A DNA stretch of 64,000 nt, from contig CALMQM010000012.1 of NCBI GenBank assembly GCA_937871435.1, positions 1 through 64,000 of the forward strand. Direction: 5' to 3'. The position numbers and the translations under genes were made by a program. The number at the start of each line of letters is the position of its first letter. Position 1 is the first letter of the stretch. The DNA is from an uncultured Bacteroidota bacterium. Its GTDB lineage: Bacteria > Bacteroidota > Bacteroidia > AKYH767-A > 2013-40CM-41-45. The notes under the pieces are model-generated. The model had not been told where the DNA came from and did not search any database. It saw nothing but the letters and a program-made list of their open reading frames with translations. Below are positions 58,011 to 62,665 of this stretch, piece after piece.

Positions 58011-60626
58011 TTATTTTTTACAACAATCTTTTGCTTTTCCTTCGCAATTCATGCCATTCTCTTTGCATTTTTCCATGCATTCCTGTGAGCAACCGTTGGA
58101 ACATTGATGACCAGCTGACATTTTCATACAAGCATCACCTCCTTTGCATTCCATTCCGCTCTTCTTACAAGCGTCCATACAAGCCTGATCGCAGTTTTTT
58201 GCATGTCCCATTCCGGCACATGAATGGCCATTTTCCATATTCATTTCGCAGCATTTCATCGCTGCCTCATGACGAACGGTACACATACCATTTTCCATCT
58301 TGAGACAATCGCTGCTGTCGCATTTTCCTTCTGCCATCCACTGTGCACAAGTCGCAGAATCAACGAGACAATTTCCGGCTGAGTCCATTGTGCAGCCCAT
58401 TTCCGCGCCCATGTGACATTCCATTTGTTTACCTGCGCAACAGTTTTTATCCATCATCGCACCACCTGAATCATTACTATGTAGCGCAATCAATGGAGCA
58501 ATAGTCAATCCTACCAGTGAAGAAAGTTTGATAAGGATATTCATGGAAGGACCAGATGTATCTTTAAAAGGATCACCAACAGTATCACCTACAACTGCGG
58601 CTTTGTGAGGTTCAGATTTTTTATAATAGGTTTGACCGTTAATCTCAACTCCTTTTTCAAAAGACTTTTTCGCATTGTCCCAGGCTCCACCGGCATTGTT
58701 CTGGAATATTGCCCAGAGCACACCACTCACAGTTACACCTGCCATATAAGCTCCCAATGCTTCTGCGCCCATCACTAAACCAATGATAATCGGAGTCACG
58801 ATTGTGATAACGCCAGGTAACATCATTTCTCGCAAAGCGGCCTTGGTCGAAATTTCGACACAGCGGCTGTAATTTGGTTTGCCGGTACCATCCATGATTC
58901 CGGGAATTTCTTTGAACTGGCGTCGAACTTCATTCACCATGTCCATCGCAGCTTTACCTACTGAATTCATCGCGAGAGCAGAAAATACTACAGGTATCAT
59001 TCCTCCGATGAACAATGCGGCCAAAACTTTCGCGTCAAAAATATTTATCCCCTGAATTCCTGTAAGAGTAACATACGCTGCAAACAAAGCAAGAGCAGTA
59101 AGTGCCGCCGAAGCAATGGCAAATCCTTTTCCAATAGCTGCAGTTGTGTTACCTACTGAGTCAAGGATATCAGTTTTCTCACGTACTTCTGAAGGAAGCT
59201 CACTCATTTCAGCAATTCCACCTGCATTGTCAGCAATAGGACCAAAAGCATCAATCGCGAGTTGCATGGCTGTGGTAGCCATCATTGCAGATGCGGCAAT
59301 TCCAACTCCATAAAATCCGGCCAATGAATAGGCTCCCCAGATCGCTCCGGCAAACAAAATCACAGGAAGGGCGGTAGACATCATTCCGGAACCTAATCCT
59401 GCAATGATGTTCGTTGCAGCACCGGTCGCGGATTTTTGTACAATAGAGAGAACAGGTTTTTTTCCAAGTCCGGTAAAGTATTCAGTGATATAAGAAATAG
59501 CAGCACCAACAAACATTCCGATCACAACTGCCCAGAATACATTCATTGAAGTGGTAGTAAGATTAGTGAATTGTCCTGCATTAAAAACACTCATAGTGAT
59601 ACTCGCAGGCAACATCATTTGAATTAAAAAATATGAAGCAATCAATGCGATCAGGATGGAGAACCAGTTACCTCTGTTGAGAGCTTTTTGAACAGAATCA
59701 GTATTGGCTTGATCAGAATCTTTCACATTCACAAGGAAAGATCCAAAGATGGAAGCGATAATACCAACTCCGGCAATTGCGAGCGGTAAAAGAATGGGAC
59801 CAATTCCGCTAAATGCATCCTGAATTCCACCCATATCACGAATGATGTAGTTTCCAAGTACCATTGAAGCAAGAACAGTAGCGACATAAGAGCCAAAAAG
59901 ATCGGCACCCATTCCGGCTACGTCTCCAACGTTATCTCCAACATTATCCGCAATTGTTGCAGGGTTTCTTGGATCGTCTTCAGGAATTCCCGCTTCTACT
60001 TTTCCGACAAGGTCAGCACCAACGTCGGCTGCCTTTGTATAGATACCTCCACCAACACGAGCGAAGAGCGCGATGGATTCAGCACCAACAGAAAATCCGG
60101 CGAGTACTTCCAGTACACGGGTCATATGCTCATATCCGGTCATTTGTCCGCCCATGAAAAACTGGAAGAGGAAAATGAACAGCAAGCTTAATCCCAATAC
60201 TGCAAGACCGGCAACACCAAGACCCATCACAAGTCCTCCGTTGAATGAAACTTTCAACGCTTTTGCAAGTGAAGTTCTGGCAGCTTGTGTAGTTCTGACA
60301 TTGGCCTTTGTTGCAATTCGCATCCCGCTGAAACCGGCTATAGCACTGAAAAAGCAACCGAGAACAAAAGAAACAACAATAAGAATATGTGAATCCGGAA
60401 CAACCTGAGAAAGAATTCCCAGACCTGTTCCTGCCAATACCATATATATAGCGAGGATTCTGTATTCTGATTTTAAAAATGCCATCGCACCTTCTGCAAT
60501 TGCAGTCGCGATACCTTGCATTTTAGAATCACCTGCATCTTGTTTCACAACCCAGGATGACTTCACAAACATGAAGAGCAATCCGATGAGCCCCAGTACA
60601 GGTATTACATAAATGAAATTTTCCAT
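58011..60626 (-). CDS. hppA: Membrane-bound K+-dependent-type pyrophosphatase with 24-Cys C-terminal extension
   Basis: 871 residues from ATG 60626 (a TTG nine codons earlier is less likely). Core residues 1-715 carry the ion-pump PPase: about 16 helices, DNVGDNVGD (227-235), [13 protein letters not shown] (466-478) and [15 protein letters not shown] (680-694). Ala in [10 protein letters not shown] (492-501) marks the K+-dependent class. The Na+-pump gate Glu is Gly here (FGSY at 244-247), so H+ pumping is favoured but unproven. Residues 725-871 are extra: 24 Cys, many Met and His, with two copies of C-x3-C-x3-C-x6-C (812-827 and 846-861). Such a tail probably binds metal. The C-terminus of this family lies on the extracytoplasmic side. 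Confidence 0.93.
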
Positions 60627-60832: not shown

Positions 60833-62665
60833 TTAATCCTTCACAAAAGAAATGCGTTTGTACAGGGCTTTATCATTTGTCAACAGACTGATAAAATAAA
60901 TTCCACGTTGCAAGCCCAAATCCTCAAAATTGAATTGGTAATGATGACTTCCCATATTCAAGGTGGTATTTTCAGGAGAATAGACTAAACGACCTATTGC
61001 ATCCCTTACCTCAATTTTCACAGGAACTTTTTGTGCAAGACTAAAATCAATATTGATTACTTCTTTAGTCGGATTAGGGTACACTTTGTATGCAAAAATA
61101 TCTTCAGGTTCTACTTTTGAAATACCTGTGAGTGTGATGGAAAACGATTGAACTTGCTGATGAAACCCGCATCTGTTGTATGCCGTCAATACTACGTTGT
61201 AAGTTCCCGTTGAACTGTAAACATGAACCGGGTTCAAAAGCGTGCTGCTATCCCCATCACCAAAATCCCAGACAAGTGAATCAAAATCTGTTGTTGTATT
61301 GGTAAAGTTAACGGTGTTTGCATTAGCGGTATAGGTGAAATTCACTGTCGGGAATGGTAGATTGAGCTGATGTGTAAGAGACCACGGAACAGCCGCCCAG
61401 TTGTTACTGTCATTCATTTCAAGAATCCAGTTGTTTGGATCTGTAAATGAAACAACATAGTAGTCGCCATTGCATACGCTGTCAAGGGTAATCCATTGTC
61501 CATATAATGCTGCAGAATAAATATCAAGATAACCAACATAAATTCCCTGATCTGTTGTACATCCTGTTACTGTTCCGAGTCCATAATTTGGAAAACTATC
61601 TCGTCCTAAAATATTGCCTGTGGTATCGACACAGTATCCATTTCCATCAGTACATTGACCCAGATTGACAAGACAATAACTTTGTTTGTTTCCTGTACCA
61701 ACTACCGGCCACTCATACGGTTGTTTCCCGATCATCGGTTGTCTTAATGTATACTCTGCCCATCCATCTAAATGAATATGTCCGTGTTGTGGATGATAGG
61801 TCATAGTTCCCGCAGGTCTGTTGTAGGTTGTGATAGCGCCATTTGTTTTATGGTAAATTGTTTGTTCCACTAATTGTTTGGGTGGCTGGCCATTCGGACA
61901 AACAGGAGTTGAACAAGATACGAGCACAGTATCACAATAACATGTGTTGATACCATGTATCTCCAATGGACCCCAGCCAATATTTGGTGTAGCATTGTTC
62001 ACATACAAAGTATCTGTAACTTCATATGAACCATCCAGTATTGCCTGTGCTGAAGCTGTCATATCCGGGATCAGATCACAATCCTGTGAACCATCAGGAC
62101 ACTGACACCTTGTTGCATCCTGCCGGCTACACGGCATGATGGAATGGCTTGTAGGACTCGAGCCAAAAGTAATTGAGAAAGAATTTACATCGCCGCTGTC
62201 AGAACCGGCCAGATCTGTTACAACCAGATACCATGTTCCATTCGGATCTCTTCCGTCATTATACAGGGCAAGATCACCATCAGGATCATATTCACCTGTA
62301 AAAGGAGGATTATTTCCGGGATCACTTAATAATTGGTTTGCGGTATGTCCGCGAAAGCATGTTCCTGTGAAATTATCATCACCATCTCCATTTCTGTTTG
62401 ACAACATAATCATCATACTATCAGGACTCATCAACTGAATTTCGAGATCCCTGTCATAAGTATGTGTGATATCTATGCATACACGTTCCAGGCCGAATTG
62501 TACACTGTCAATGCTATTAGGTAAACCACTGACGACACAAGGAAGGTAAACAGGAATAGCAACTCCGGTATAGTCTGGTAGGTGCCCACCTGTACCGTTA
62601 AATGTTTGGGAAGTACAGATAAAAGAATAGCAAAGGAGGAGGAGGCTGAGGTAGAGTGATCGCAT
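60833..62665 (-). CDS. T9SS-exported lysyl-oxidase-like protein with P-domain and PKD
   Basis: 610 residues. Signal peptide 1-19; proprotein-convertase P-domain about 25-168 (CIDITHTYDRDLEI, NGTWYLVVTDLA); lysyl-oxidase-like domain about 215-430; PKD domain about 440-512 (SLVWDFGDGDSS); T9SS type A sorting domain about 526-610 (YKVYPNPTKEVINIDF). The copper motif YHPQHGHIHLDGWAEY has H294, H296 and H298 matching the three His ligands of animal LOX. K327 (NKQSYCL) aligns with the lysine that forms the LTQ cofactor, and Y383 (LDIYSAALYGQW) with a conserved Tyr in the cofactor region. Lysyl oxidases oxidise lysine side chains to allysine, causing crosslinks. Surface exported. Terminator not found. 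Confidence 0.85.
   Translation of the reverse strand: MRSLYLSLLLLCYSFICTSQTFNGTGGHLPDYTGVAIPVYLPCVVSGLPNSIDSVQFGLERVCIDITHTYDRDLEIQLMSPDSMMIMLSNRNGDGDDNFTGTCFRGHTANQLLSDPGNNPPFTGEYDPDGDLALYNDGRDPNGTWYLVVTDLAGSDSGDVNSFSITFGSSPTSHSIMPCSRQDATRCQCPDGSQDCDLIPDMTASAQAILDGSYEVTDTLYVNNATPNIGWGPLEIHGINTCYCDTVLVSCSTPVCPNGQPPKQLVEQTIYHKTNGAITTYNRPAGTMTYHPQHGHIHLDGWAEYTLRQPMIGKQPYEWPVVGTGNKQSYCLVNLGQCTDGNGYCVDTTGNILGRDSFPNYGLGTVTGCTTDQGIYVGYLDIYSAALYGQWITLDSVCNGDYYVVSFTDPNNWILEMNDSNNWAAVPWSLTHQLNLPFPTVNFTYTANANTVNFTNTTTDFDSLVWDFGDGDSSTLLNPVHVYSSTGTYNVVLTAYNRCGFHQQVQSFSITLTGISKVEPEDIFAYKVYPNPTKEVINIDFSLAQKVPVKIEVRDAIGRLVYSPENTTLNMGSHHYQFNFEDLGLQRGIYFISLLTNDKALYKRISFVKD

Follow-up and report, generated by a model that had tools for sequence, protein, structure and literature searches.

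Does a bacterium of the phylum Bacteroidota export a lysyl oxidase (LOX) with an intact active site, and what would such an enzyme act on? The question is raised by a minus-strand gene in the window, by which we mean the whole 64,000-nucleotide stretch of DNA analyzed here. An earlier note on this DNA had read the gene product as a P-domain, a LOX-like domain, a PKD domain, and a T9SS signal, in that order, with a copper triad at H294, H296, and H298, a cofactor lysine at K327, and a tyrosine partner at Y383. Pfam and NCBIfam matches reproduced the order, with the T9SS type A tail above the NCBIfam cutoff and a likely signal peptide preceding the P-domain, and all five residue numbers were exact in the 610-amino-acid translation. 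That note did not mention H291, the other five genes with LOX domains in the genome, or a branch of the family that has lost copper-binding histidines, all of which are taken up below. The features of the gene are as follows.

60833..62665, minus strand: LOX-like gene, 610 aa, complete ORF with an ATG start (ORF reading)
62606..62665, minus strand: likely Sec signal peptide, residues 1 to 20, MRSLYLSLLLLCYSFICTSQ (read from sequence)
62165..62482, minus strand: proprotein convertase P-domain, residues 62 to 167 (Pfam P_proprotein PF01483, 41.1 bits)
61367..62134, minus strand: LOX-like domain of the diverged Bacteroidota family, residues 178 to 433 (Pfam plus family and profile comparison)
61772..61795, minus strand: HPQHGHIH, residues 291 to 298, with H294/H296/H298 and H291 opposite LOXL2 H626/H628/H630 and H623 (alignment)
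61685..61687, minus strand: K327, putative LTQ lysine, LOXL2 K653 (alignment; invariant in 72/72 relatives)
61673..61675, minus strand: C331, opposite LOXL2 C657 (alignment)
61559..61561, minus strand: C369, opposite LOXL2 C673 (alignment)
61517..61519, minus strand: Y383, putative LTQ tyrosine, LOXL2 Y689 (alignment; invariant in 72/72 relatives)
61133..61333, minus strand: PKD domain, residues 445 to 511 (Pfam PF18911, 44.6 bits)
60851..61084, minus strand: T9SS type A C-terminal sorting domain, residues 528 to 605 (Pfam Por_Secre_tail and NCBIfam)

Active-site residues align in register with those of LOX

The Pfam Lysyl_oxidase match (PF01186) in the window protein covered residues 369 to 425 only (27.3 bits; cutoff, 20.4), which is the tyrosine half of the domain, and the C-terminal end of the LOX-like domain also resembles CARDB, which matched 30 of 52 family members. 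The Pfam match was therefore rejected as sole proof of register, and the His/Lys half required a separate test. When a profile of the 52 window-family members was aligned with a canonical LOX profile, the match had a probability of 98.6% (E = 1e-15); against LOXL2 alone, the E value was 1.7e-10. In both profile-profile alignments, K327 pairs with K653, Y383 with Y689, and the HxHxH motif with the LOX copper triad. The LOXL2 alignment also pairs the entire HPQHGHIH of the window protein with HDCHRHYH, so that a fourth histidine, H291, is kept opposite LOXL2 H623. The CARDB likeness nevertheless raises the alternative that the LOX match is spurious and arises from CARDB-like C-terminal strands, the more so as in some proteins from other Bacteroidota the match is confined to that end. 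That alternative is contradicted by the His/Lys half, which by itself, without the CARDB-like end, scored 44.9 against canonical LOX, compared with 9.4 to 16.5 for 30 column-shuffled controls, and we regard it as highly improbable. Against the single LOXL2 sequence, the His/Lys half aligned around the lysine only.

A second route to the register ran through a canonical LOX paralogue encoded in the same genome (G000:C72). In its alignment with human LOXL2 (5ze3; E = 6e-19), the CHxHxH, GHK, and DxY motifs of the two proteins coincide, and the same pattern is seen for 16 relatives from other genomes; the paralogue and the window protein also align to each other in the same register. The earlier claim that the triad and K327 follow the LOX register was thus borne out by both routes, and the proposed tyrosine partner is present opposite Y689. 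The earlier note had named a shifted triad or K327, or a missing tyrosine, as grounds for abandoning its reading; we looked for these and found every residue in place. On these alignments, the window protein is a diverged member of the LOX family.

Differences from animal LOX

The window protein shares with human LOXL2 and LOX (PF01186; PDB 5ze3) the HxHxH copper triad, the extra upstream histidine, K-x3-C, and D-x-Y, all in register, but it has no SRCR domains and carries a P-domain, a PKD domain, and a T9SS tail instead. LOXL2 C657, C663, and C673 are matched by C331, C338, and C369, whereas three other LOXL2 disulfide cysteines, C625, C685, and C695, have Q293, Y379, and G389 as their counterparts; in LOXL2, C673 pairs with C657 in a disulfide (PMC9180022). 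The full set of ten conserved cysteines, which make five disulfides in the animal LOX family, is not present in the window protein. Disulfides are highly variable (PMC6452851), and the ten-cysteine pattern is a trait of animal LOX rather than of the family as a whole. Near-invariant cysteines particular to the window family are C187, C189, C196, C244, and C345. The spacing from lysine to tyrosine is 56 residues (K327 to Y383) compared with 36 in LOXL2, or about 20 residues longer, and N326 stands in place of LOXL2 H652, the replacement of which leaves less than half of the LTQ in LOXL2 (PMC9694262). A structure model of the window protein, made from three sequences only, had a pLDDT of 39.7 and was too poor for a fold search.

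A diverged family with many copies and architectures

The source genome encodes six LOX-domain proteins, namely, the canonical G000:C72 (777 aa) and five members of the diverged family to which the window protein belongs. The canonical protein has the LOX domain, a T9SS tail, and the same five active-site residues but is far nearer to LOXL2 (83.7 Pfam bits), lacks the first histidine, and had no P-domain that we could find. Members of the diverged family occurred in 26 of the 42 genomes of the order examined (E <= 1e-20). Outside the order the family is rare in the phylum: among 395 genomes sampled evenly from the phylum, only two others had full-length or near-full-length matches, with 31 to 32% identity to the window domain. 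We found no relatives on viral contigs.

Across the family, the P-domain may precede or follow the LOX domain, the accompanying domains are of the fn3, Ig-like, or PKD type, and a T9SS tail is usual. In one paralogue (L011:6512-9121), the P-domain follows the LOX domain and the C terminus has a weak dockerin-like match, with no T9SS tail by Pfam. Genome G006 (7% contamination) gave about 19 family matches scattered over different contigs, two of them fragments of a single broken frame; in the G006 matches (L027, L066-L075, L077-L080, L084, and L085), D or N replaces the first histidine. G112 (L048, L053, L055, L057, and L059) has a 1,359-residue open frame with repeats whose match to the LOX domain is limited to its CARDB-like end.

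Conservation of the active site and a clade without the full set of copper ligands

K327 and Y383 were invariant in all 72 distinct domains compared, whose identity to the window domain ranged from 31 to 75%. K327 is the sole lysine of the window domain that is conserved throughout, and Y383 is one of three invariant tyrosines. H294, H296, and H298 were all present in 65 of the 72 domains. Among the 63 main-family members with the triad, each of these histidines is at least 97% conserved. The first histidine (H291 position) occurs in 46 of the 70 family members.

The seven domains that lack the full triad form a single clade (support, 100/99) spread over six genomes, three families, and six genera (L095, L096, L097, L098, L099 [two genes], and L040; genomes G002, G004, G008, G018, G019, and G033). 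Six of the ORFs are intact and begin with signal-peptide-like sequences; in the seventh, the start contains masked letters. T9SS tails were found in all three members that were scanned, and a P-domain was found in none of them. G018 shows the His-less type only. Thirty-seven positions are at least 97% conserved among the 63 triad-bearing main-family members, and the His-less clade keeps 31 of them in at least six of its seven domains. None of the seven retains H294 or H296, and three retain H298; the remaining three weakened positions survive in five of the seven. The loss appears to be specific to the metal site. These proteins share the domain family, T9SS export, and the lysine and tyrosine with the window protein, but two or three of their copper ligands are replaced. 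In LOXL2, LTQ requires H626, H628, and H630, and its formation is aided by H623 (PMC9694262); by this mutagenesis, the His-less clade should lack LTQ, and we predict that it is inactive. Since its members keep the lysine and tyrosine without the copper ligands, conservation of that pair is by itself no proof of LTQ in this family. We considered a compensating metal site built on H326 and H411, which are enriched in the clade, and rejected it: both histidines also occur in a triad-bearing sister (L038) and so are probably older than the loss of the ligands.

Export and gene neighborhood

The earlier claim of surface export held up well. The window protein carries the T9SS type A sorting domain, and its genome has at least 150 T9SS sorting domains (150 of 441 candidates scored) and a gene for the SprA translocon. 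Export of the window protein to the cell surface by the type IX secretion system is therefore well supported by its sequence and that of its genome.

The next same-strand gene after the LOX gene encodes an H+-pyrophosphatase. G004 and G008 retain this pair, whereas the close relatives G002 and G005 do not (G004 and L007 appear to be one genome), and paralogues of the window protein have other neighbors; an operon or partner gene was rejected on these grounds. No functionally linked neighbor of the LOX gene was conserved among the relatives compared, and promoter or terminator signals at the gene did not rise above chance. The H+-pyrophosphatase has a Cys/Met/His-rich C-terminal tail of about 160 residues past its Pfam domain (58011-58502, minus strand); the tail is also present in relatives (L007 and L130) and looks metal binding.

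Proposed activity and alternatives

We favor the view that the window protein is a surface amine oxidase, a diverged LOX that is exported by the T9SS and depends on copper and LTQ, and we consider this probable. H294, H296, and H298 would bind copper; copper and O2 would oxidize Y383 to dopaquinone, to which K327 would add to form LTQ; and LTQ would then oxidatively deaminate primary amines (peptidyl lysine, polyamines, or other small amines), yielding aldehydes, H2O2, and ammonia. We infer copper binding, LTQ formation, catalysis, and the nature of the substrate for the window protein; its homology to LOX, the register and conservation of its active-site residues, and its export signal can be read from the alignments themselves. 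As a precedent, amine oxidase activity has been shown for the LOX of the archaeon Haloterrigena, which has the three copper-binding histidines and both LTQ residues, lysine and tyrosine (Pestov et al. 2019; PMC6452851). Several features weigh against our view: the missing LOXL2 disulfide cysteines, the longer stretch from lysine to tyrosine, N326 in place of LOXL2 H652, and the His-less clade with its retained lysine and tyrosine.

Alternatively, the LOX fold could act as a noncatalytic binding or structural module at the surface, with the P-domain, PKD domain, and LOX domain as parts of an adhesin or scaffold and the lysine and tyrosine in structural roles. Adhesion-type domains do flank the LOX domain across the family, and the seven His-less relatives have persisted across six genera after losing two or three copper ligands while keeping 31 of the 34 other near-invariant positions, the lysine and tyrosine included. 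Set against this, the window protein and 64 other domains retain the whole triad, the near-complete conservation of each triad histidine in the main family is not expected from drift, and H291 is retained as well; we regard a purely noncatalytic module as unlikely. It is less likely still that the Lys-Tyr pair does something independent of the copper ligands (another crosslink, another metal site, or binding), in which case a nonoxidase role could extend to the window protein too.

If the window protein is an amine oxidase, its role is a separate matter. The earlier note had suggested that lysine oxidation crosslinks the matrix or biofilm. This did not gain ground: a search of the source genome for a collagen-like protein, a candidate crosslinking substrate, gave no match, no linked neighbor is conserved, and the characterized archaeal LOX is of relaxed specificity, accepting many different small amines (PMC6452851). 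Matrix crosslinking is thus one of several possible roles and is unsupported at present. The oxidase might instead scavenge amines or release H2O2 and aldehydes against competitors, a possibility that we hold tentatively. The archaeal enzyme oxidizes taurine, cadaverine, histamine, and polymyxin (PMC6452851), which would suit such a role, as would the failure to detect a collagen-like protein; however, no catabolic or transport genes are conserved beside the LOX gene, and T9SS export is equally compatible with a protein substrate.

Relation to known prokaryotic LOXs

Grau-Bove et al. (2015) described LOX from five bacterial clades, Bacteroidetes among them, used the same residues to predict activity, and noted architectures that were mostly simple (PMC4448552). 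These prokaryotic LOXs (PMC4448552; PMC6452851) share the five key residues with the window protein; in contrast to those of PMC4448552, the window family is multidomain, T9SS exported, and multicopy. Judged by its sequences, it is a diverged, expanded, multidomain variant of the known LOX family. In the library of papers that we searched, no published work on T9SS lysyl oxidases of Bacteroidota was found. A surface-exported family with up to about 19 copies per genome and a natural copper-less branch offers a comparison for testing LOX function in bacteria; the copper-less branch in particular could be used to test whether the LTQ lysine and tyrosine act apart from the cofactor, a question that bears on LTQ formation in human LOXL2. 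Finally, the first histidine was stated to be absent from bacteria (Grau-Bove et al. 2015; PMC4448552), and the 46 of 70 window-family members that have it are an exception to that statement.
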